Below, piece by piece: positions 6,740-35,175 of a stretch of 64,000 bases of DNA (the stretch's first letter is position 1; each line of letters opens with the position of its first letter). The stretch spans positions 4,319,001-4,383,000 of the forward strand of contig CP133159.1 of the NCBI GenBank assembly GCA_030913385.1, read 5' to 3'. This stretch comes from Cytophagaceae bacterium ABcell3. Its GTDB lineage: Bacteria > Bacteroidota > Bacteroidia > Cytophagales > Cytophagaceae. Both the position numbers and the translations under genes were made by a program. The notes below the pieces were generated by a model. The model was not told the DNA's origin. It worked only from the letters and a program-made list of their open reading frames with translations, and searched no databases.

Positions 6740-6943
6740 TTTAACAGATTCCTCGTTCCTCGGAATGACAGGTTATCATTAAGGTTATAATTAGCAGAAA
6801 ACCAAAACTTAACCGTCATTGCGAGGCATAAGGTAGTGGTCGGTAAAGTTCTTTGTCTGAAACTTTAAGCCTTTAGTTTCTTATAAAAAAAATGCCGCGG
6901 CAATCTGTTTGCTGTGAGCTGTGTTGGTTGATTGTTGGTGGGG
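6740..6943 (+). repeat. Diverged partial copy of the 348-bp repeat
   Basis: This stretch carries degenerate versions of segments found in the two full copies that follow: the ggaatgacaggtta box, the taattagcagaaaa box, the cttaaccgtcattgcgaggc box and the tgccgcggcaatctg box. It is the oldest-looking member of the array. No credible gene lies in 6611-8133. Confidence 0.75.
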
Positions 6944-7291
6944 TATGATACTAGACCTGAGATGAAAGTACCCTCTGCACTTAACACTCCTCCTTGTCAT
7001 CCTGACGAAGGAAGGATCTGTTGGAGTAAAAGTATGAGTGCCTTTATCTACTCTTATTACAATGGTAGGTGCCAAAGTCTGGCAGATTCCTCTCCGATAG
7101 CTATCGGGACGGAATGACAGGTTACTAATAAGGCTGTAATTAGCAGAAAAACAGAACTTAACCGTCATTGCGAGGCGCAAGATATGGGTTGTTAAAGCTA
7201 TAGGATTAAAGCTTACAGTCTTATGTTTCTTATGAAACAATGCCGCGGCAATCTGGTGGCCGTTAGCTGTGTTGGTTGATTATTGGTGGGG
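6944..7291 (+). repeat. 348-bp tandem repeat, copy 1
   Basis: The unit begins tatgatactagacctgagat and recurs with a period of exactly 348 bp (6944, 7292, 7640). It includes segments typical of Bacteroidota intergenic repeats, such as cgtcattgcgaggcgcaag and gatagctatcggga (an 8-base palindrome with flanks). Open frames seen here on the minus strand are by-products of the repeat and are duplicated with it. Confidence 0.9.
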
Positions 7292-7639
7292 TATGATACT
7301 AGACCTGAGATGAAAGTACCCTCTGCACTTAACACCCCTTCTTGTCATCCTGACGAAGGAAGGATCTGTTGGAGTAAAAGTATGAGTGCCTTTATCTACT
7401 CTTATTACAATGGTAGGTGCCAAAGTCTGGCAGATTCCTCTCCGATAGCTATCGGGACGGAATGACAGGTTACTAATAAGGCTGTAATTAGCAGAAAAGC
7501 AAAACTTAACCGTCATTGCGAGGCGCAAGATATGGGTTGTTAAAGCTATAGGATTAAAGCTTACAGTCTTATGTTTCTTATGAAACAATGCCGCGGCAAT
7601 CTGGTGGCCGTTAGCTGTGTTGGTTGATTATTGGTGGGG
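7292..7639 (+). repeat. 348-bp tandem repeat, copy 2
   Basis: Nearly identical to copy 1, with only a few substitutions visible. A third start follows at 7640 but diverges after about 15 bases into another common repeat segment, agattgcttcgtcgtgcctc, at about 7662. The near identity of copies 1 and 2 implies recent tandem duplication. Confidence 0.9.
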
Positions 7640-17752: not shown

Positions 17753-18184
17753 ATGGACTATTCATCGGGCCAGGGCCGTAAACAAAAGGAGACAAAAGAC
17801 TTTCAACCGGAAGAAAAGAGAATTCCGGTTATAGAAGAGCAGGTAAAAGTAGAAAAAGAAACGAAAGAAACCGGCAGTGTGCACATTTACAAGCATGTAA
17901 CTGAAAAAGAGGTTGAAGTAGATGTACCTGTGGTAAATGAGGAATTGGAAGTAGAACGGGTGGAGGTAAATCAATTTGTAGACGAGCCGCCTCCTGCCAT
18001 TCGAAATGAGGGGAACACCACGGTTATAAGTGTCCTAAAGGAAGTAGTTGTAAAACGTACAGTACTTGTTGAAGAGGTAAGGGTAACGAGAAAGAAAACA
18101 ACCAGTGCCAATCAACAAAAAGTAACCCTTCGAAAAGAAGAGGTAGAAGTAGAGCGAGGTAAAAACAAGGGAAACAAAAATTAA
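17753..18184 (+). CDS. DUF2382 (YsnF/AvaK) domain protein
   Basis: 143 residues made almost entirely of one DUF2382 domain: RIPVIEEQVKVEKETKETGS, VTEKEVEVDVPVVNEELEVE, then EGNTTVISVLKEVVVKRT and VTLRKEEVEVERG. The family occurs in stress-associated proteins, and its alternating charged and hydrophobic strands suggest an extended beta structure. Molecular function unknown. It is 12 bp upstream of a second DUF2382 gene, so the two form an operon. Confidence 0.85.
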   Translation: MDYSSGQGRKQKETKDFQPEEKRIPVIEEQVKVEKETKETGSVHIYKHVTEKEVEVDVPVVNEELEVERVEVNQFVDEPPPAIRNEGNTTVISVLKEVVVKRTVLVEEVRVTRKKTTSANQQKVTLRKEEVEVERGKNKGNKN

Positions 18185-18196
18185 ACTAAAAAAACT

Positions 18197-19000
18197 ATGG
18201 CAAAAACAGTTGTTGGATTATTTAACTACTCAGACAAAGCACACATTGCTGCCCAGGAGCTAATAGAAGCTGGGATACCAATTAACAATATTGATATTGC
18301 GGGAGAAGAACATCCAGAGAACATCGCCAAAAGTGAAAAGAAAGAGGAAGATAGCTTCTCAAAGTTCTTCAACAACCTATTTGGAGATACAGAAGAATCC
18401 CGCACATACAGCCACGCCGCAAGAACAGGAGGCACATTGGTTACAGTACACTGCAAGTCAACACAAGAAGCTGAAACCGCTGCCAGAATCCTTGATGAAA
18501 ACGGTGCTGTAGATATTGATGAAAAGCTAAAGAAAGACAAAGGATATCAGGAAAAAACTGGCTCAAAGAGAACAACTGACAAGTCTGAAACTATTCCTGT
18601 GATAGAGGAAGAAATGAATGTCGGGAAGAAAAAAGTAGATACTGGAGGCGTGAAATTGCGCAGCCGTATTATAGACAAGCCGGTAGAGGAAAAACTAAGG
18701 CTAAGAACCGAAAAGATTAATGTAGAGAGGAATCCAGTTAATCGGAAAGCTACTGAAGCCGAGCTAGAAAACTTCAAAGAGGGATCCATAGAGGCCAGAG
18801 AGAAAAAAGAAGTTCCTGTAGTAAACAAGGAAGCCCGTGTCGTAGAAGAAGTCCATCTTAAAAAAGATGTCAAGGAAAAAGAAGAAACAATCAGAGACCG
18901 GGTAAAAAGACAAGATGTGGAGGTTGAAAAAGGTAAAGAGCAACAAAAAAAGCGGGTAACAAACCCTGACAACCCAAACATTAAGCCAGACCATAATTAA
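18197..19000 (+). CDS. Two-domain stress protein: GSP17M-like plus DUF2382
   Basis: 267 residues. Residues 1 to about 110 (AKTVVGLFNYSDKAHIAAQE, TGGTLVTVHCKSTQEAETAA, ARILDENGAVDIDE) resemble the heat-induced general stress protein 17M-type domain, which often precedes DUF2382. Residues about 130-250 are a DUF2382 region (TIPVIEEEMNVGKKKVDTGG, EKINVERNPVNR, KKEVPVVNKEARVVEEVHL). The tail is Lys/Glu-rich. Cytoplasmic. Its pairing with the preceding gene supports a shared stress role. Confidence 0.82.
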   Translation: MAKTVVGLFNYSDKAHIAAQELIEAGIPINNIDIAGEEHPENIAKSEKKEEDSFSKFFNNLFGDTEESRTYSHAARTGGTLVTVHCKSTQEAETAARILDENGAVDIDEKLKKDKGYQEKTGSKRTTDKSETIPVIEEEMNVGKKKVDTGGVKLRSRIIDKPVEEKLRLRTEKINVERNPVNRKATEAELENFKEGSIEAREKKEVPVVNKEARVVEEVHLKKDVKEKEETIRDRVKRQDVEVEKGKEQQKKRVTNPDNPNIKPDHN

Positions 19001-20979: not shown

Positions 20980-23769
20980 ATGAGAAAAACTGTACCAGAA
21001 TTTTTCACATTAAAGTATGTCTTTCTAACGCTACTTATAATTACACCTTATGAAAAACTCAACGCACAAAATGATGAAGAACCGCAGTTCGAAATCACAA
21101 ATATTAGGATTGTAGGCCATGATGACCGGGTATGTCTAGACGAGGACAGAAAATATGAACTTGCATTTGATGTGGAAGGCGAAGTGCCGGAAGACGTACA
21201 ATTCACGGCTTTTCACAGGTCCACATGGATGACCTTTGTCGAAAACAGGTTAGACACCATTCCTTATAACGAAAGAAGTTTTACAGGTCAATTTACAGAT
21301 TCAGGCTTTCCTTCTTCCCCCGTTACAAACCACGGATTTGTTATAGCGGCAATAAATGGCGATGACACCCTACTCACATCCAGTAACTCGTTCGAAGTAG
21401 TCCAAAAGATAGATGTAGAAAATGCTGAAATCATGTCTCCCGAAGAGGATTTTGCAATTTCGCAAGATACTATTCTGGACCTATTCCTTAGTGTAGACAT
21501 AGGAAGTGGGGGCATTGGCCACTCTTTTAAAATAGTTCATGAGGAGTCCGGTGAAGATTTAACGGAGTGGCAAATGATCACTGATCCACCATTCATTAAC
21601 AAATCTATTGAAGTTTCCGAACCAGGCACCTATAGACTGATAGGAAGATCCCTCTGTGAAGATAGTGTGGTAACGGATGATTATTTTACCGTAACCCAAG
21701 AAGATGAGCCAGAATTCGAAATAACGAACATCAGAATTTCAGGTCACGATGAACTGGTATGTTTGGGCGAAGACCTGTCGTACGATCTAGCTTTTGATGC
21801 AGAAGGAGACATTCCGGACGATGTAGAGTTTACGGCAGAATACCAAATATCTTATCTTTCAGTCGCATATTACAATCTTGATACTGTTTCAAGCGAGGAA
21901 CGGAGTATACCCGGAGAATTTCCAGAAGAGTACTTTCCATCCTCTCCAGACGGGAGGCACTTATTCGTGGTGAAAGCCATACAAGATGGCCAGACAATAG
22001 CAGCGGACACCCAGTCTTTTGATATTGTCAGGCATATTGATATAGAAACTGCTGCTTTGGGCATGCCTTCTGAAATTGAAATAACTCAAGATACTACTAT
22101 AGAACTTTACATGGGTACTGACCCTGCGGAAAGAGGCATAGGCCACCTTTTTAAAGTTGTACACGAAGAGTCCGGTGAAGATTTGACCCATTGGGCAGGA
22201 ATCCCAGACCCTCCAGTGATAGTTCAAAATGCTGAAATCTCTGAACCGGGAACCTATAGGCTGGTCATCCAATCTCTCTGTGAAGACAGTGTTGTAACTG
22301 ATGAATATTTCACTGTTATACGGACTGAAGAAAGAGAGGGCCAAATCACTAGCATCAATTTACCAGCTTCTGAAAACGGGGTGCTCTGCCTTGACCGTGA
22401 AGAAGATTATTACTTAGAGTTTGAAACGGAGGGCTCTTTCCCAGAGGGGACTGTTTTTTATGCCATGATGACGGACGCAGACATGATTGCTTCTACAGAA
22501 ATTGGTAGCACTCCTGCCACGGATAACAATAAAATTTTATTGAGCTTTCCAGAAGATATCCCTTATGCGAATCGCGACTATGGTATTTTTATAGAAGCGA
22601 GGGACAATGGTACAATCGAGCAAAGCGATACATTATTTACTGAAATCATTGAAGTTCCGACCAATGCCAACCTTTCAGGCACAGTACTCGGTGGCGAGGA
22701 AACCAGGACAGTAATGGACGAGGTTGTATATATAAATCCAGAAGAAGGTGAATTTGTAGAGGTCACCCCCACAGGACAACAAGTTGAAGGGATACAATAC
22801 AAGCTGGTACATGAAGAAACTAGAAGCAGTATTACCGACTGGGTAACCCACAGACTAGGCGCAGCTACTTTTTCTGAAGCCATCTCTGAAGATGGAACCT
22901 ATAGGTTGTACGGAAGAGGCGTATCAAGTGATGGTGAAATAGTGTGCTTCGACAGTATCAGACTTGATGGGTTCATTACGATCAAACATAGAGAAATAGA
23001 AGAAAAGCCTATAGAGATTGTAGTAAGAGATGAAGATGGAAACAACTTACAGCCAGACGATGATGGAAGGTTTGTTATCTGCCCAGGCGCAAGGGCCACT
23101 TTACGAGTTCCTAATAAAGAAAACGCTACTTACTACTGGTACAAAGACGGGGAACACCTGGAAAGCATCAATGAAAGGGCATTCAGTGTTGGTGTCTTCG
23201 AAAGTGAAAGGTTAGGCAGTGGAGACTACCATGTACGCATTGAGGTTGAGGGGAAAGTTTATGTTTCAGAACCTGTAACTGTGATTTTTGAAGAACCTAA
23301 TGTATATGTCTTGACTGAAGACAACGCGCTAACAGCTTCCGAAGGGATATCATACCAATGGTATAGAAACGGCGAACGACTAGATGGTGAAACCAATAGA
23401 TCTATGACTGCTGAAGCGTCAGGTATGTACAGTGTAAAAATAGAGGTAATGGCAGGCTGCAAAATCATGTCAGACGAACATGAAGTTATCATTACCAGCG
23501 TACATGCGGAAGAAATGAACAGCGGCTTTAAAGTTTACCCTAATCCAGTAAACGCTGAAGCTACATTGGAGGTAAACAGTAGTTATAACGGCCCTGTACA
23601 AATAAAGGTGCTAGACGTTACAGGAGGAGAACATTTATCCTTTGAAGCTGAAAAAACTGGCAACGTGTTCACCTATAATGTTAATCTTTCCGGACTCAAC
23701 AATGGGATTTATTTTGTGCAAGTTCTGGAAAATGAGAATATTTCGGTACTTAAGATCATCAAGAATTAA
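20980..23769 (+). CDS. T9SS-exported repeat protein, three-repeat form
   Basis: 929-residue secreted protein with an N-terminal signal (to about residue 29, ending KLNAQN). It has three repeats of roughly 200 residues: about 35-245 (FEITNIRIVGHDDRVCLDED), 247-447 (FEITNIRISGHDELVCLGED) and 451-670 (a diverged SINLPASENGVLCLD). Each of the first two ends with a YRL..SLCEDSVVTD block. An Ig-like segment (YYWYKDGEHL, SYQWYRNGERL) follows. The last 80 residues are a type A T9SS sorting domain (FKVYPNPVNAEATLEV ... NGIYFVQVLENENISVLKI). Predicted cell-surface or secreted; no enzyme motif. It is paralogous to the gene at 24113. Confidence 0.85.
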   Translation: MRKTVPEFFTLKYVFLTLLIITPYEKLNAQNDEEPQFEITNIRIVGHDDRVCLDEDRKYELAFDVEGEVPEDVQFTAFHRSTWMTFVENRLDTIPYNERSFTGQFTDSGFPSSPVTNHGFVIAAINGDDTLLTSSNSFEVVQKIDVENAEIMSPEEDFAISQDTILDLFLSVDIGSGGIGHSFKIVHEESGEDLTEWQMITDPPFINKSIEVSEPGTYRLIGRSLCEDSVVTDDYFTVTQEDEPEFEITNIRISGHDELVCLGEDLSYDLAFDAEGDIPDDVEFTAEYQISYLSVAYYNLDTVSSEERSIPGEFPEEYFPSSPDGRHLFVVKAIQDGQTIAADTQSFDIVRHIDIETAALGMPSEIEITQDTTIELYMGTDPAERGIGHLFKVVHEESGEDLTHWAGIPDPPVIVQNAEISEPGTYRLVIQSLCEDSVVTDEYFTVIRTEEREGQITSINLPASENGVLCLDREEDYYLEFETEGSFPEGTVFYAMMTDADMIASTEIGSTPATDNNKILLSFPEDIPYANRDYGIFIEARDNGTIEQSDTLFTEIIEVPTNANLSGTVLGGEETRTVMDEVVYINPEEGEFVEVTPTGQQVEGIQYKLVHEETRSSITDWVTHRLGAATFSEAISEDGTYRLYGRGVSSDGEIVCFDSIRLDGFITIKHREIEEKPIEIVVRDEDGNNLQPDDDGRFVICPGARATLRVPNKENATYYWYKDGEHLESINERAFSVGVFESERLGSGDYHVRIEVEGKVYVSEPVTVIFEEPNVYVLTEDNALTASEGISYQWYRNGERLDGETNRSMTAEASGMYSVKIEVMAGCKIMSDEHEVIITSVHAEEMNSGFKVYPNPVNAEATLEVNSSYNGPVQIKVLDVTGGEHLSFEAEKTGNVFTYNVNLSGLNNGIYFVQVLENENISVLKIIKN

Positions 23770-23788
23770 ATACTATCAAATTCTCAAA

Positions 23789-23834
23789 AAAACACGACAA
23801 GCTTGGCATCTTTGGCCAAGCTTGTCGTGTTTTA
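23789..23834. terminator. Bidirectional terminator
   Basis: Long inverted repeat aacacgacaagcttggc / gccaagcttgtcgtgtt with a short loop; A-rich before and T-rich after. It follows the first T9SS gene. The rest of 23835-24112 shows no gene and must contain the promoter of the second. Confidence 0.92.
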
Positions 23835-24112
23835 AGCAATTTAGGCCTCCTACCCCTTCCCCTTTTGTAAAGCTGCAAGTAACCCCCTTCCAGATTACTA
23901 AAAAACTAGCAATTTCCATTACCCACCAATCATAATAGCACCCACAACCAAAAATGAAACATTTTATACTGCACTCGGTTTTCCCAAATACAAACCCTAA
24001 TCGACATGAGATAAAAAACTAACAACCAGCTAACAAAAGTTTTTTGCTTTTGACCGTGAACTCGGAAACTGATACTTTCATTTAACTCACTTTATCACAA
24101 ACTTTATTTGTC

Positions 24113-26251
24113 ATGCAGAAACTTACACGCATATTTTCCGAGATAGAACCTTTAAAGTTCCATCTACTATTGCTTCTATTATTGTTCTCAACGAAAGCTA
24201 CAGCCATAGCAAATGACATAAATAACGAAGAACCGCAGTTCGAAATCACCAACATAAGAATTGTAGGCCATGACGACCGGGTGTGTCTGGACGAGGACAG
24301 AAAATATGAACTCGCATTTGATGTGGAAGGCGAAGTACCGGAAGACGTACAATTCACGGCTTTTCACAGACACTCATGGATGACCTTTGTTGAAAACAGG
24401 TTAGACACCATTCCTTATAACGAAAGAAGCTTTACAGACCAGTTCACAGATTTAGGTTTTCCTTCTTCCCCAACTATAAACCACCTATTTATTGTAGCCG
24501 CAATAAATGGCGGTGATACCCTACTCACATCCAGTCGCTCGTTCGAAGTAGTCCAAAAGGTAGATGTAGAAAATGCCGGGTTTACACATCCAGAAGTAGA
24601 TTTTGAAATTTCCCAAGATACTATATTCGACTTCACCATTGTTGTTGACGGAGGACGTGGAGGTGTTGGACATTTCTTTAAAATTGTGCACGAAGAATCT
24701 GGCGAGGATTTTACCGACTGGCAAATGATCTCAGACCCACCACATATACAACATTTTACCATGGATGTTTCAGAACCGGGAACTTACAGGCTAATTGGCA
24801 GGTCACTATGCGAAGACAGTGTGGTAACTGACGGCTATTTTACTATAACCCGTACCGATGAACCTCCATTGCCAGACCTACAGATCACAAATTTACATAT
24901 ACCTAGCGCCAATGACTTTGCATGCCTTATAGATGGCCCCCTCGAACTTGGTTTTGATGTGGAAGGAGATGTGTCGGGAGATATAACTTTTACGGGAGTT
25001 CATGAAATACAATTTGTCGGCTCTCACGAAACTACCTTGGGGCCGATAGAAAGCCATGAAAGGAGATTCCCATTGGAGTTTCCCTCAACTGCTCCATCTG
25101 CACCATTAGGATACAATATTTTTACAGTAAGGGCCATACATCCAGAAGAAGGAATTATAGCTGAAACAATTGACACGTTAGACATTGTCACTCCTGTAGC
25201 CCCTGAACAAGCAAGTCTTGCGCCTGACGGAATTATTGAGATATCACAAGACACGACTATAGATATAGGGTTTACTTACAATATAGCTGGTCATTTGTAT
25301 AAAATTGTCCATGAAGAAACAGGAGAAGATCTTATTGAATGGAGTTACACTTTAGATGAGCCAATTTGGCATTGGGATTTTCCAATTTCGAAGGCCGGCT
25401 CTTATAGGCTAATTCTCGGTTCTCTTTGCGAGGACAGCATAGTGACTGATGAATACTTTACAATTGTCAGAAAAGACCCTGACCCCAAACCTGTAGACCT
25501 TATTGTCCGAGATGAAGATGGTAATTTCCTACAGCCAGGCGATGATGGAAGGTTTGTGGTATGCCCGGGGAAAAGAGTTACTTTACGCGTACCTAACAAA
25601 GAAAACGCAACCTACTACTGGTATAAAGATGGGAATCACCTGGACAACATCAATGAGAGGGCCTACAGTATCGGAATCTTTGAAAGTGACAGGCTAGGCA
25701 GCGGAGACTACCATGTACGCATTGAGGTTGACGGGAAAGTTTATGTTTCAGAACCTGTAACTGTGATTTTTGAAGAACCTAATGTATATGTCTTGACTGA
25801 AGACAACGTGCTAACAGCTTCCGAAGGGATATCATACCAATGGTATAGAAACGGCGAACGACTAGATGGTGAAACCAATAGATCTATGACTGCTGAAGCG
25901 TCAGGTATGTACAGTGTAAAAATAGAGGTAATGGCAGGCTGTAAAATTATGTCAGACGAACATGAAGTTATCATTACCAGCGTAAATGCTGAAGAAATGG
26001 ACAGCGGCTTTAAAGTTTACCCTAATCCAGTAAACGCTGAAGCTACATTGGAGGTAAACAGTAGTTATAACGGCCCTGTACAAATAAAGGTGCTAGACGT
26101 TACAGGAGGAGAACATTTATCCTTTGAAGCTGAAAAAACTGGCAACGTGTTCACCTATAATGTTAATCTTTCCGGACTCAGCAATGGTATTTATTTTGTG
26201 CAAGTCCTAGAAAAGGAAAATATCTCGGTACTTAAGATCATCAAGAATTAG
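24113..26251 (+). CDS. T9SS-exported repeat protein, two-repeat form
   Basis: 712 residues, paralogous to the preceding gene. The signal peptide (to about residue 33) is unrelated to that of its partner, but the first repeat and the last about 250 residues (Ig-like segment YYWYKDGNHL plus T9SS sorting domain) are nearly identical at the DNA level. The second repeat (LQITNLHIPSANDFACL) is diverged, and a third is missing. Exported and anchored through the T9SS. Function unknown; likely a surface adhesin or binding protein. Confidence 0.85.
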   Translation: MQKLTRIFSEIEPLKFHLLLLLLLFSTKATAIANDINNEEPQFEITNIRIVGHDDRVCLDEDRKYELAFDVEGEVPEDVQFTAFHRHSWMTFVENRLDTIPYNERSFTDQFTDLGFPSSPTINHLFIVAAINGGDTLLTSSRSFEVVQKVDVENAGFTHPEVDFEISQDTIFDFTIVVDGGRGGVGHFFKIVHEESGEDFTDWQMISDPPHIQHFTMDVSEPGTYRLIGRSLCEDSVVTDGYFTITRTDEPPLPDLQITNLHIPSANDFACLIDGPLELGFDVEGDVSGDITFTGVHEIQFVGSHETTLGPIESHERRFPLEFPSTAPSAPLGYNIFTVRAIHPEEGIIAETIDTLDIVTPVAPEQASLAPDGIIEISQDTTIDIGFTYNIAGHLYKIVHEETGEDLIEWSYTLDEPIWHWDFPISKAGSYRLILGSLCEDSIVTDEYFTIVRKDPDPKPVDLIVRDEDGNFLQPGDDGRFVVCPGKRVTLRVPNKENATYYWYKDGNHLDNINERAYSIGIFESDRLGSGDYHVRIEVDGKVYVSEPVTVIFEEPNVYVLTEDNVLTASEGISYQWYRNGERLDGETNRSMTAEASGMYSVKIEVMAGCKIMSDEHEVIITSVNAEEMDSGFKVYPNPVNAEATLEVNSSYNGPVQIKVLDVTGGEHLSFEAEKTGNVFTYNVNLSGLSNGIYFVQVLEKENISVLKIIKN

Positions 26252-27167: not shown

Positions 27168-27200
27168 TTTGCTTTAATGAACATGCGCCTATTATTTTTG
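27168..27200 (+). promoter_or_regulatory. Promoter of the 27274-29662 cluster
   Basis: TTTG at 27168-27171, a 21-base spacer, TATTTTTG at 27193-27200: an exact match to the Bacteroidota consensus. The leader to the ATG at 27274 is about 67 bases. Confidence 0.7.
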
Positions 27201-27273: not shown

Positions 27274-27855
27274 ATGTGGGGCAAGAACAACAAAAAGGAC
27301 AAAGACGAGGAGAAGCAAAAAAAGAACTCATCAGGAACAATACAAACTTCTGATAACAAACCAACCGAGCCAGATGTTATACTTGACATCCCGGAGGTAA
27401 AAGTTGACGAAATAAAAGTCAAAGTACGCAATCTGGATGCTCATGTATCAGTCAATGCCAAAATTGCTGATTTCGTAAAAGTTAATGTCGGTGCTAATGT
27501 ACACATTGGCAAAGTAGACATCGAAATCGAAGGGGTAAGGGCTGAAGCATACCTGAAGGCAAGATTGGAAAGGGTCAAAACAATTCTTAACAGAACGATT
27601 CAGACACTAGACCATAACCCTGAAATCCTGAAGTCACTACTTAAACCAGTGGCAGAGGGTGCAGGAAAAGCCACTGGTGAAGTTGGCAAAGGAGCAGGAA
27701 GCGCAGTTGGAAGCATCGGCCAAGGTGCTAAAGACACTCTTCAAGGTGTGGGACAAGGAGCTAAGGGCATAGTGACTAAAGCCGGAGACGCCATTAGCAA
27801 CATTAAATTAGGTGTCGGCATAAAGAAGATGCTTAAAAATGTAAACGTCTTCTAA
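27274..27855 (+). CDS. Cluster paralog 1: PDV-core protein with 11-residue repeats
   Basis: 193 residues, no signal peptide. Residues 1-31 are highly charged. Core 32-123 starts EPDVILDIPEVKVDEIKVKV, has alternating short hydrophobic strands (VSVNAKIADFVKVNVGANVH) and then a helical stretch EAYLKARLERVKTIL with TLDHNPEILK. From residue 127 come four exact 11-residue units (AEGAGKATGEV, GKGAGSAVGSI, GQGAKDTLQGV, GQGAKGIVTKA), like amphipathic helix repeats of LEA proteins or synuclein. Two further paralogs follow. I do not recognise a named family. Probably cytoplasmic or membrane-surface. Confidence 0.85.
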   Translation: MWGKNNKKDKDEEKQKKNSSGTIQTSDNKPTEPDVILDIPEVKVDEIKVKVRNLDAHVSVNAKIADFVKVNVGANVHIGKVDIEIEGVRAEAYLKARLERVKTILNRTIQTLDHNPEILKSLLKPVAEGAGKATGEVGKGAGSAVGSIGQGAKDTLQGVGQGAKGIVTKAGDAISNIKLGVGIKKMLKNVNVF

Positions 27856-27924
27856 AACACTAAGCCGTCACTATATTAAAAGCAGAAGTATGTCTGCAAA
27901 CATAACAACATAAATACTAGAGGG

Positions 27925-28584
27925 ATGAAGCTGAAAGAACTGTTTACGAGGGACAAGAGCAAAAAGAGAGACAAGGACGAAAACAGAGCCAAAAGAGAGC
28001 GGAAGGAAAATAACAACAAGCAGCAGAACCTGGAGCTGAAAAAGAAAAACCAGGATAAAACAGAGGTAGACGTAACACCAGAAGACAAACCTCAGAAGGA
28101 GAAAAGCAGAGAGGAAAGAATAAAGCTACAAAAGCATACGTTAGGCTTTCCTTCTGAAATAGATGGCACAGAGGTAGATGTAATACTTGAGGTGCCTGAG
28201 GTAAAAGTAGATAAAATTCGTATCAATGTAGAAGACATTGATGCAAGAGTAGACCTTCATGTAGAAGCCCTGAACCTGGTACATATAGACGCCGGGGTTC
28301 ATGCCCATCTCGATCAGGTAGAGGTAATCATAACGGGTGTAAGGGCCGAAGCATACCTGCAAGTACGTTTGGAAAGGGTCAAAAGCGTACTGGTTCGAGT
28401 AATGGAAATGCTCGACAACAATGCTGATATGCTTACTGAAGTGCTAAAGCCAATTGGCGAAGGTGCCGGAAAGGCTACCGGGCAAATCGGTGAAGGCGCC
28501 GGAAGTGCCACGGGAAGCATTGGTGAGGGCGCCAAAGGCACACTCAGCGGAGTAGGACAAGGAACTAAACAGGCCGCCAGTTAA
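27925..28584 (+). CDS. Cluster paralog 2: PDV-core protein with 11-residue repeats
   Basis: 219 residues. A very charged N-terminal region of about 75 residues (KKRDKDENRAKRERKE) precedes the shared core at 82-175 (EVDVILEVPEVKVDKIRINV, AEAYLQVRLERVKSVL). The tail from 178 has three exact 11-residue units (GEGAGKATGQI, GEGAGSATGSI, GEGAKGTLSGV) and ends GQGTKQAAS. 69 bp after paralog 1 on the same strand. The stop codon lies within a hairpin (28570-28592). Function unknown. Confidence 0.85.
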   Translation: MKLKELFTRDKSKKRDKDENRAKRERKENNNKQQNLELKKKNQDKTEVDVTPEDKPQKEKSREERIKLQKHTLGFPSEIDGTEVDVILEVPEVKVDKIRINVEDIDARVDLHVEALNLVHIDAGVHAHLDQVEVIITGVRAEAYLQVRLERVKSVLVRVMEMLDNNADMLTEVLKPIGEGAGKATGQIGEGAGSATGSIGEGAKGTLSGVGQGTKQAAS

Positions 28585-28607
28585 GCGGCCTGTCCCCTTT
28601 GTATTTT
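28570..28607 (+). terminator. Intercistronic hairpin over the paralog 2 stop codon
   Basis: caggccgc and gcggcctg pair around cagttaa, which contains the TAA stop; a looser pyrimidine/T-rich stretch follows (tccccttt, then tattttt). It could partly terminate transcription or protect the upstream message, separating paralogs 1 and 2 from 3-5. Confidence 0.6.
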
Positions 28608-28631
28608 TAACCTTATAAAAAACAAATATTT

Positions 28632-29123
28632 ATGTCAGAAGACCAGAAAAACAACAGCCACGAAGAACAAAAAGACTTTGATATCTCGTCTGAGAAAAAA
28701 GTGCCTGAACCTGATGTAATCCTTGATGTTCCCAAGCTTAAAGTGGGCGAAATCAAGTTAGATGTAGAAAACCTTGACGCTGAAATTTCTGTCAAAGCCC
28801 AACTTGCTAACTTTGTCAATATTGAAGTAGGAACCAAAGTACATATAGAAAAGGTAAAGCTGGAGATAAAAGAGGTTGAAGCAGAAGCCCACCTCAACGT
28901 TCGACTGAAACGGGTTGAAAACATACTGTTAAGAACCCTTAAGTACCTGGACGAAAACCCAGATGCGCTTAAAAACCTTATCCCTCTGGATAAAATAAAC
29001 GCTTCCAATGGACAAAAGTCAAATACAGTAGGGGGAAAAATCCAATCTGCTGGGGAATCTTTAGGCGAAAACAAAGCAGGAGAACTGGTTCAGAAAGCGG
29101 GAGAGAAAATTTCAAAATCTTGA
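28632..29123 (+). CDS. Cluster paralog 3: PDV-core protein without Gly repeats
   Basis: 163 residues. The core at 25-116 (EPDVILDVPKLKVGEIKLDV, EAEAHLNVRLKRVENIL, YLDENPDALKNL) aligns with paralogs 1 and 2 along its length. The tail (117-163) is short and polar (GGKIQSAGESLGENKAGELV) and only faintly recalls the 11-residue units. No signal peptide. The same family as its neighbours, with diverged ends. Confidence 0.85.
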   Translation: MSEDQKNNSHEEQKDFDISSEKKVPEPDVILDVPKLKVGEIKLDVENLDAEISVKAQLANFVNIEVGTKVHIEKVKLEIKEVEAEAHLNVRLKRVENILLRTLKYLDENPDALKNLIPLDKINASNGQKSNTVGGKIQSAGESLGENKAGELVQKAGEKISKS

Positions 29124-29144
29124 CACATTTAGCAAGGCTTAATT

Positions 29145-29375
29145 ATGGCAGAAGACGAAAAGAGAGACGAAAAGGGCCGTAGGTATATAGCAGAGATTTC
29201 TGCTGCCTCTGAAACAAAAAAGCACAACGTCATCAAAGACGAGAAAAAAGGTGAAGTGAAAAATGAAACCACCCATAGGAATATCATACTCAGAAAAGCG
29301 GCAGGAGCCAAAAGGTGGGTCAAGAAAATAATAAACACCAAAACAGGAGAAACAAAAACCAGCAAAGAGAAATAA
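29145..29375 (+). CDS. Cluster small basic protein
   Basis: 76 residues, rich in Lys, Glu and Arg, with a C-terminal half HRNIILRKAAGAKRWVKKII that could form a basic amphipathic helix. It has none of the PDV core. It lies 22 bp after paralog 3 and 6 bp before the next gene, so it is very probably co-transcribed. No known family. Confidence 0.65.
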   Translation: MAEDEKRDEKGRRYIAEISAASETKKHNVIKDEKKGEVKNETTHRNIILRKAAGAKRWVKKIINTKTGETKTSKEK

Positions 29376-29380
29376 ATAGC

Positions 29381-29662
29381 ATGGAGAAAGGCAAAAAACT
29401 CAAATCAGACAAACCGCTAGAGGAACCTGATGTAGAATTTTCCGCCGGCGCCAAAATGAAATGGATGCATGTAGAAAAAGCAGGAAAAGTGGAAGTAGAA
29501 AACTACAGCAATATAAAACATGAAGAGTTTCACCAGAGCATTAGGATAAATATGCCCGATGAGATAAAAGATGGTGAAACTTATGAAAGTGCAGAGATCC
29601 AAACCCGAAGGGAAAATGCCCTTGATGAAGAGGATGCTATGCCAGACGAGCCAGAATCTTGA
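29381..29662 (+). CDS. Cluster small acidic protein with partial PDV motif
   Basis: 93 residues from the ATG at 29381; the longer frame from 29315 would overlap the preceding gene. It begins with a charged stretch and then EEPDVEFSAGAKMKWMHVEK, whose EPDV entry matches the start of the paralog cores, but the rest differs. The tail is acidic (ENALDEEDAMPDEPES). It may be a diverged or shortened member. Last gene of the cluster, followed by a hairpin. Confidence 0.65.
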   Translation: MEKGKKLKSDKPLEEPDVEFSAGAKMKWMHVEKAGKVEVENYSNIKHEEFHQSIRINMPDEIKDGETYESAEIQTRRENALDEEDAMPDEPES

Positions 29663-29724: not shown

Positions 29725-30357
29725 TTACTCCCCGGCCTGAAGTGCCTCAAGGGTTTCAATCTGGCTTTGCTTTATGTTTGCAGACTCTTCTGCAACTGCG
29801 GCCACCTCCTCTACCCTTCCGTGTTCCATTTGCAAATTGGCAAGTTGAATCCCTTTTTCATTATGTAAAATCATCAGTGCAGGGAAATCTTCCTCAACAT
29901 CATCCTTCGTATCTACTGCTGCCTTTTCTTCTTCAAATTCCTGAAGAAAATTTTCCAGTTCGGGCAAATGCGCCCCATTTCTAGGCATAGGATGAACTGC
30001 ATGAATGTAGTTCGAAAAATAGTCCAACTCCCGCTCCTGAACAGCCTGTATATCTCTGGACACTTCCACCTGAATGGTATCCTGCGCCCGTCTTATTTGA
30101 TAGTCTGTCATGGCAATACCTACTTGATGGTGAATGACCATCAAAGAGGCATAATCATAATCAGGGTCTCCTGTAAGCTCCATGGCCCTCATCTGTTCCA
30201 ATGATTGAAACATTAACTCAGAAAGTGAAGCTGTGACATGCCCAGGCACTTCATCACCCAAGCGCCCCCCATCTGTAGGCATATGCCTTTCCCGACAGGC
30301 CGACAGCAGTATTATTGAAAATAAAAAAATCACCATGCAGAAGGAAGTTCTATTCAT
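29725..30357 (-). CDS. DUF305 lipoprotein, copy 1
   Basis: 210 residues with a lipoprotein signal (FSIILLSAC at the lipobox). Two DUF305-type halves: the first contains DPDYDYASLMVIHHQVGIAM, the second PALMILHNEKGIQLANLQM. DUF305 folds as a ferritin-like four-helix bundle, and some members bind metal through a HH pair; only the first half keeps HH here. Probably periplasm-facing. A second such gene lies at 34543. Confidence 0.8.
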   Translation of the reverse strand: MNRTSFCMVIFLFSIILLSACRERHMPTDGGRLGDEVPGHVTASLSELMFQSLEQMRAMELTGDPDYDYASLMVIHHQVGIAMTDYQIRRAQDTIQVEVSRDIQAVQERELDYFSNYIHAVHPMPRNGAHLPELENFLQEFEEEKAAVDTKDDVEEDFPALMILHNEKGIQLANLQMEHGRVEEVAAVAEESANIKQSQIETLEALQAGE

Positions 30358-34542: not shown

Positions 34543-35175
34543 CTAAATATCCTCATCTTCACCGTTGATGTACGCATCTAAGGCGTGCAATTCTGCTTCT
34601 TGGGTAGCAATTATATTTCTTGCAAGCTCAACAAGCTCAGCAGAGCGTCCATAAGTTTCATAGATCCTGGCCAGCCTTACTCCCTGATCGTGATGAAGGG
34701 CAATGGCTTGAGCAAACTCGCTGTCGATATCATCTCCAGTTATTTCCACTTCACCCACTTCATCTTCGGCCACTTCCAAATACCGGCTCACTGCATCACG
34801 AAAAGTCCTTCTATCATCCTCAGGAGTAAACTCATCAGTAAACTCTTCAAACCTTAGTAAGTCCCTCTCACTATTCCGAACCACTCGTTCGGCGAGTTCA
34901 ATAAGCAACACATCATCCCCCCTAGCTATTTGTTCATCTGCAATTTGTATACCCGCCTCTTTATGTCGTTGCATCAGACTTGCAAAATCATAATCCGGAT
35001 CTCCGGTCAGTTCCACATCTCTCATATCAGCCAATGCCTCCTCAACTACATTGAGCAAATTAGCGTCAGTCACCTCAGGCGCAGGCCCTCTCCTTTCGCT
35101 GGTTGCCGGGCGTTCACCACATGAACCTAGTAGAAACAATGCTCCTACAAACATCATCAAAACCTTCACTTTCAT
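34543..35175 (-). CDS. DUF305 lipoprotein, copy 2
   Basis: 210 residues with lipobox ALFLLGSC followed by GERPATSERRG. Two DUF305-like halves: DPDYDFASLMQRHKEAGIQI and FAQAIALHHDQGVRLARIY, each followed by a helix with a Q/E-E motif. Here the second half keeps HH and the first has HK, the reverse of the gene at 29725. Very acidic. Probably a periplasm-facing helical bundle. Confidence 0.8.
   Translation of the reverse strand: MKVKVLMMFVGALFLLGSCGERPATSERRGPAPEVTDANLLNVVEEALADMRDVELTGDPDYDFASLMQRHKEAGIQIADEQIARGDDVLLIELAERVVRNSERDLLRFEEFTDEFTPEDDRRTFRDAVSRYLEVAEDEVGEVEITGDDIDSEFAQAIALHHDQGVRLARIYETYGRSAELVELARNIIATQEAELHALDAYINGEDEDI

Follow-up and report, generated by a model that had tools for sequence, protein, structure and literature searches.

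We analysed a 64,000-nucleotide stretch of contig CP133159.1 of Cytophagaceae bacterium ABcell3 (positions 4,319,001 to 4,383,000), referred to here as the window. Five open reading frames (ORFs) on its + strand, separated by gaps of 69, 47, 21, and 5 nt, span positions 27274-29662. An earlier note, made from the letters of this DNA, had described them as three paralogs sharing a core of about 90 residues, followed by a small basic and a small acidic protein, and had proposed that the five form one system. The description was confirmed: gene 1 shares 51% identity with gene 2 and 47% with gene 3, and genes 4 and 5 encode proteins of opposite net charge. The five-gene system was not retained. 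By genome comparison, the conserved unit consists of the core and gene 5, whereas gene 4, for which no relative was found, lies outside it as an orphan, and the three-paralog array is local. The five genes are as follows.

27274..27855, + strand: gene 1, core paralog; 193 aa, core at about residues 32-123, tail of about four 11-residue repeats
27925..28584, + strand: gene 2, core paralog; 219 aa with a lysine-rich N-terminus and a tail of 11-residue repeats
28632..29123, + strand: gene 3, core paralog; 163 aa, 11-residue period not significant, placed in the tree with the G011 copy that adjoins gene 5
29145..29375, + strand: gene 4, orphan ORF for a small basic protein; 76 aa, net charge +9
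29381..29662, + strand: gene 5, small acidic protein assigned to the partner family; 93 aa counted from the ATG, net charge -11

The ORF of gene 5, as called mechanically, begins upstream of the ATG from which its length is counted. The motifs E-x-DVIL-x-x-P-x-x-KV and RLxRV are both invariant in genes 1 to 3. Used as a query against its own 5.1-Mb genome, gene 1 matched gene 2 (E 2e-47) and gene 3 (E 2e-31), and nothing further. Gene 4 has no second copy in that genome and no match at an E value of 1 among the flanking ORFs of 84 core loci. Its single PHROG match (E 0.003) is to an entry of unknown function; the other four window proteins had no PHROG match.

Two candidate expression signals were located around these genes.

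27169..27200, + strand: candidate Bacteroidota-type promoter, TTG-N21-TATTTTTG; one pattern match only
28567..28595, no strand assigned: 12-pair hairpin just after gene 2, a possible attenuator between genes 2 and 3; called terminator-like on the - strand

The promoter pattern is one that we take to be of the Bacteroidota type. The one consensus promoter of the earlier note comes down to this single pattern match; the sigma-70 scan detected 5 sites versus 6.8 +/- 2.4 in shuffled sequences, that is, no excess. Terminator-like sites in the region, including the hairpin, were present at chance number (4 versus 4.2 in shuffles).

The core and gene 5 as a conserved pair

Clustering of the ORFs flanking the 84 core loci returned, besides the core and its other reading frames, one family present in 56 loci, whose clustered members sit directly 3' of a core gene; the next family was present in at most 19. 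Gene 5 of the window belongs to this partner family though it is 12-33% identical to the other rows of the alignment. A gene-5 profile (alignment A8) detected a homologue immediately following the core gene at 70 of the 84 loci, on the same strand in every case (70/70); relative to the core ORF end, the matches start between -205 and +121 nt. The 14 loci without a match comprise three contig ends (L041, L048, and L091), both Deinococcus records, and nine others.

Co-occurrence was assessed in 296 genomes of the Actinomycetota. The sample was centred on G461, a Streptomyces genome reached via locus L031 and picked since it was core-positive. The core was found in 17 of the 296 genomes, G461 included, and in 16 with G461 left out. 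Gene 5 was found in 13 genomes, all of them among the 17 core-positive ones, and in none of the 279 core-negative genomes (Fisher p 1.4e-19, kinship ignored). Leaving out G461, which was known beforehand to be core-positive, all gene-5-positive genomes (12/12) were still within the 16 core-positive ones. The four core-positive genomes devoid of gene 5 were G610, G640, G696, and G728. In 11 of the 13 genomes, gene 5 and the core match were 0.8-3.2 kb apart; in the remaining two, gene 5 was on another contig.

Closer to the window, the core was rare, being detected in 5 of 59 relatives and in 5 of 390 genomes of the order, namely the own genome and four genomes of genus g6, which belong to the same family. 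A phylum-wide search with a narrower alignment as the query recovered the core in 1 of 395 genomes, the own genome. The core/gene-5 pair was present in all four g6 genomes (L106, L108, L110, and L112), and their second locus, which contains two core genes, lacked gene 5. The arrangement nearest to that of the window was found in G011, in which a gene-1/2-like copy is followed by a gene-3-like copy and then by gene 5; this was the sole such case among the four g6 genomes. In a tree of 47 cores, gene 3 grouped with the gene-5-adjacent copy of G011 (support 92/84), and genes 1 and 2 grouped with its upstream copy (support 95/85). These pairings are suggestive only, since the tree has long branches and an unsettled bootstrap.

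Searches of plasmid records by tblastn identified the core in one Streptomyces, one Nonomuraea, and two Deinococcus (46-49% identity); searches of phage records by the same method gave no core match. A scan of genome contigs yielded 185 core relatives. The best 80 of the 185 were kept, and their titles were all actinobacterial, including Streptomyces, Nonomuraea, Herbidospora, Saccharopolyspora, Actinomadura, and one metagenome-assembled genome (MAG) of the Solirubrobacterales. The similar unnamed proteins of actinobacteria, which the earlier note had mentioned tentatively, are confirmed, relatives existing in many Actinomycetota. The core forms of Deinococcus taeanensis (L022, on a plasmid) and of four viral-bin contigs (L172-L175) have a signal-peptide-like start, and, from these sequences, an exported core subtype seems to exist. 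Two of these four contigs have a weak match to the gene-5 profile (E 1e-5 and 1e-4) just upstream of the exported core.

L172:4533-4829 and L174:4533-4829, directly upstream of the core ORF: weak gene-5-like ORF with a PPDIELNVHAT... start

If this weak match counts, one more lineage would have the pair, with the gene order reversed. As to the gene neighbourhood, which the earlier note had proposed to check, the association of the core with gene 5 extends far beyond the own genome, but the set of five genes is not kept. The two-gene module is the best-supported part of the analysis.

Predicted structure of the two families

Residues D34, P40, G73, A92, and L98 were kept in all rows of an alignment of 55 core members (A7). 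For gene 1, AlphaFold2 predicted strands at residues 35-38, 42-64, 68-90, and 93-96, and helices at residues 98-114 and 116-159. The mean predicted local distance difference test score (pLDDT) was 66 and the predicted template modelling score (pTM) was 0.29; residue blocks within 31-130 were at 71-89, and confidence was poor elsewhere. In this model, the core consists of a long amphipathic beta-hairpin and a helix, and 11-residue repeats usually follow it. Family-average hydropathy alternated between hydrophobic and polar at 91% of the steps in both long strands, versus 52% in shuffles (p <= 2e-4), and the slips in this alternation resemble beta-bulges. The maximum of the strand hydrophobic moment between 150 and 180 degrees was significant (p 0.024 and 0.013); the moment at 180 degrees was significant neither per sequence (p 0.06-0.24) nor for column means (p 0.10 and 0.23). 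We infer that a one-sided hydrophobic hairpin of such length should pack with a partner.

The tails following the core are repetitive in genes 1 and 2 and in most relatives. A lag of 11 was the best repeat spacing in 80 of the 83 testable tails of the 84 loci. Tail identity at lag 11 was 0.32 for gene 1 and 0.56 for gene 2, values reached by none of 5000 shuffles; gene 3 showed no significant period (lag-11 p 0.81). The hydrophobic moment at 98 degrees (z 4.1 for gene 1, 5.8 for gene 2, and 10-14 for three relatives) points to one hydrophobic stripe. The repeats are Gly/Ala-rich, range in number, as counted by eye, from about four in gene 1 to dozens in relatives of 590 and 907 residues, and differ strongly in length among species. 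By virtue of their 11-residue repeats and single hydrophobic stripe, the tails are similar to Apolipoprotein A1/A4/E (PF01442); perilipin and synuclein are other amphipathic 11-mer repeat proteins. PF01442 matched 22 of the 55 core members weakly (E up to 0.01, best 1e-5) and gave no match to gene 1 of the window. The long core protein of L148 scored 45.1 bits and so fell short of the curated Pfam cut-off of 90. In contrast to apolipoproteins, the core-family repeats are Gly-rich, are joined to a conserved beta core, and come with a partner gene.

Gene 5 was predicted by AlphaFold2 to form a three-stranded sheet (mean pLDDT 83), with a significant amphipathic signal in one of the three strands (p 0.035). 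No Pfam or NCBIfam model fits this protein (best 0.012), a PDB profile search returned one chain (E 0.36), and the best fold matches had a Foldseek E value of 4.3 and a VIA-align Z score of 3.0 (root-mean-square deviation, rmsd, of 3.3 over 51). The earlier note had observed that gene 5 keeps the EPDV of the core. Shared ancestry is not supported by this motif, as a profile comparison of the two families aligned 10 columns with a probability of 0.1.

None of the five window proteins matched Pfam or NCBIfam above cut-off, and Pfam, NCBIfam, PADLOC, and PDB searches gave no core match naming a family. The PDB profile search with the core returned designed bundles, tape-measure proteins, and other entries, all weak (best 8e-4) and mostly on the helical part. 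Fold comparison, for which the query model is of low confidence, gave a best Foldseek E value of 0.36 and a best VIA-align Z score of 4.4 (rmsd 12.2 over 68). Toxin stem hairpins appeared in the fold-search lists and were set aside, the likeness residing in the long hairpin shape alone. Anti-phage defence was likewise rejected (0 PADLOC matches for the five window proteins at E 0.01). Full-text literature, with subscription journals mostly outside the search, contained no paper with any of four family sequence fragments. No named family in the libraries searched fits the core, which the earlier note had been unable to place, and the confident match to a characterised family that would have overturned its reading appeared neither in the libraries nor in the fold searches.

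The anatomy of the two families tentatively leads us to favour the possibility that genes 1 to 3 and gene 5 encode a self-assembling scaffold or coat, which in this host would probably be cytosolic. The core hairpins would pack via their hydrophobic faces into homo-oligomers or hetero-oligomers of the paralogs, and gene 5 would bind or cap the core sheet. The repeat tails would form 11/3 amphipathic helices lying along a surface, which may be a membrane, an inclusion, or the tails themselves. In some actinobacteria, a ParA ATPase may position the assembly in the cell. The earlier note had placed the proteins perhaps at the membrane. The highest 19-residue mean hydropathy across the five window proteins was 0.92, a value at which neither a transmembrane segment nor a signal peptide would be expected in them; with no strongly hydrophobic stretch, membrane contact would be peripheral at most.

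The main rival explanation is that of a LEA-like desiccation or stress protectant, in which repeats disordered in solution would fold on drying and shield proteins and membranes, the core serving to anchor or multimerise them. The 11-residue period, the hydrophilic character of the proteins, and the two Deinococcus hosts are in keeping with this explanation, as is a neighbouring pair of genes encoding DUF2382 domains (17753-19000), which we take to be stress-linked and which lie 8 kb upstream of the cluster. However, no LEA model matched the five window proteins, or the 55 members searched at E 0.01 with their tails shortened to about 75 residues, and the Gly/Ala-rich repeats differ from the LEA 11-mers, which are Lys/Glu-rich. 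LEA-like protection would also leave the obligate partner unexplained, the core family differing from LEA proteins by its conserved core and partner gene. Finally, promoter motifs were sought upstream of the 80 actinobacterial copies. The sigB type was found in 0/80 with a strict pattern and in 4/80 with a loose one, versus 2.9% of background windows; extracytoplasmic function (ECF) motifs were found in 6/80, versus 7.0% of the background, and sigR and housekeeping-type motifs in none. None of the stress-sigma motifs tried was enriched, and the suggestion of the earlier note that the genes act under stress gains no support from them. A LEA-like role appears unlikely, without being negligible.

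Neighbouring genes and the proposed assembly

Genes of the SRPBCC family (PF03364) were found in the flanks of 19 of the 84 core loci, in both orientations. They would fit an explanation in which the two small families are retained as a pair that serves in metabolism, transport, or signalling, for example in ligand transport with the SRPBCC neighbour of actinobacteria, rather than in a structural assembly. This role is rather improbable in our view. A search for SRPBCC relatives in the 64-kb window and in eight g6 regions gave none, and the strong variation of repeat length between species is, we infer, often a property of structural tails.

Ten regions were fetched from other core-positive genomes of the 296-genome sample, most of these genomes having a size of 2.8-4.6 Mb. 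A helical protein related to one in L151 was present in eight of the ten regions. Three of these proteins were scanned: two matched Phasin_2 weakly (E 0.026 and 0.007, below cut-off), and all three matched E3_binding (PF02817) strongly (E 2e-10 to 9e-42). A short core protein of L148 also has an E3_binding match (E 1e-9). Loci L146-L149, L151, L152, L154, and L155 contained two core genes and a phasin-like protein with E3-binding domains or a similar motif; gene 5 was present in seven of these eight clusters and a ParA ATPase in four. Neither phasin-like nor ParA partners were found in L150, which ends at a contig edge, or in L153, which has a single core gene. The one ParA-family ATPase scanned, out of those present in 4 of the 10 fetched regions, matched PF13614 (E 1e-37). 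Three of the four ParA genes adjoin a gene for a protein with a GITFNL segment (possibly ribbon-helix-helix) and a tail module also found in core proteins. A ParA-family gene near the core is reminiscent of McdA/McdB, a ParA-type cargo positioning system (PMC6328274 and others). Here, the likeness is one of gene content, and neither the window nor the eight g6 regions have a ParA relative.

The two actinobacterial clusters that were scanned combine this weak Phasin_2 resemblance with apolipoprotein-like sequence, as would be seen if the proteins formed a phasin-, apolipoprotein-, or MLDS-like coat on a storage inclusion, either a polyhydroxyalkanoate (PHA) granule or a triacylglycerol or wax droplet. 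Class III PhaC (TIGR01836) was found in 14 of the 16 other core-positive genomes of the 296-genome sample, with 13 matches over cut-off. However, it was found in 0/19 genomes of the family of the window, own genome included, and, among 11 additional actinobacteria with the core, in three (all below cut-off), versus 3 of 14 core-negative controls (two over cut-off); with the same model, a Caulobacter control matched below cut-off. In Rubrobacter, class I and class III PHA synthases are reported (PMC8146576). WS/DGAT (PF03007), matched in 18 of 60 genomes overall, was also found in 0/19 genomes of the family, own genome included, in 2/16 and 9/11 of the core-positive genomes, and in 7/14 of the core-negative ones. 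No single stored lipid goes with the family. Since neither PhaC nor WS/DGAT accompanies it throughout, neither type of inclusion is predicted in the host of the window, and an inclusion coat is very unlikely. The helical neighbours resemble phasins, whereas the window proteins do not match the phasin model (PF09361) and the family of the window has no PhaC match. MLDS is a Rhodococcus lipid-droplet protein tying droplets to DNA (PMC5504291) and is described as a bacterial protein with an apolipoprotein motif. The likeness to MLDS is by this description, and the setting differs, as the own genome has no WS/DGAT.

A gas-vesicle accessory protein was considered because GvpA is present in 17 of the 23 core-positive actinobacterial genomes searched. 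GvpA was absent from the other six and from both Deinococcus records, and no GvpA motif was found in the flanks of the 84 loci. The own genome gave no GvpA match (PF00741), with no control matched there, the model matching 17 of 25 genomes or records elsewhere. A gas-vesicle role is hardly credible. The SRPBCC protein was also considered as a gas-vesicle link and rejected, as no relative was found in two GvpA regions fetched.

An eCIS_core gene adjoins the core gene in Streptomyces camponoticapitis (L045:6804-7736), and elsewhere in the own genome an open frame of some 1400 residues matches DUF4157/eCIS_core (L104, C1:1398131). A link to an extracellular contractile injection system was rejected: L045 is the only one of the 84 loci with eCIS_core, phmmer found none of its relatives in the other flanks, and these occurrences were read as coincidence.

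Other genes of the window were recorded. Two large secreted proteins, encoded by tandem paralogs, lie at 20980-26251; the second has a Por_Secre_tail match, which agrees with a host in the Bacteroidota, and weak Ig-like matches. Two DUF305 genes are located near the cluster, both on the minus strand (29725-30357 and 34543-35175). Two consecutive minus-strand ORFs at 6881-7588 are nearly identical (MFHKKHKTVSFNP...), as a result of local duplication or as a repeat.

Several observations weigh against such a self-assembling structure. Overall, the model of the core is weak, as judged from its mean pLDDT and pTM. Gene 3, which is paired with gene 5 in kin, has no clear 11-residue period, and a clear period is likewise missing from the majority of short second core proteins in L146-L155. 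The window and the eight g6 regions have no ParA, SRPBCC, or phasin-like relatives, and the window has no ParA P-loop motif. The signal-peptide-like forms of Deinococcus taeanensis and of the viral bins indicate that not all members are cytosolic.

If a scaffold or coat is nevertheless formed, it could conceivably, though doubtfully, be of an undescribed kind. Its minimal parts would be the core, the 11-mer tail, and gene 5; it would be built on amphipathic beta-hairpins and be distinct both from gas vesicles and from inclusions of lipid or polyester. It would be shared between phyla, perhaps by transfer, and would have an exported variant, and one actinobacterial group would have added phasin-like linkers with E3-binding domains and movement on the nucleoid by a dedicated ParA. 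Judged against four protein libraries, sequence and fold comparison with the PDB, and the full-text fragment search, the novelty lies in the two families and the module that they form. Two families unnamed in the libraries are genetically tied across distantly related bacteria. If the proposed assembly is true, they would provide a new cell structure whose simple parts, open to expression and imaging, are encoded by two small genes.

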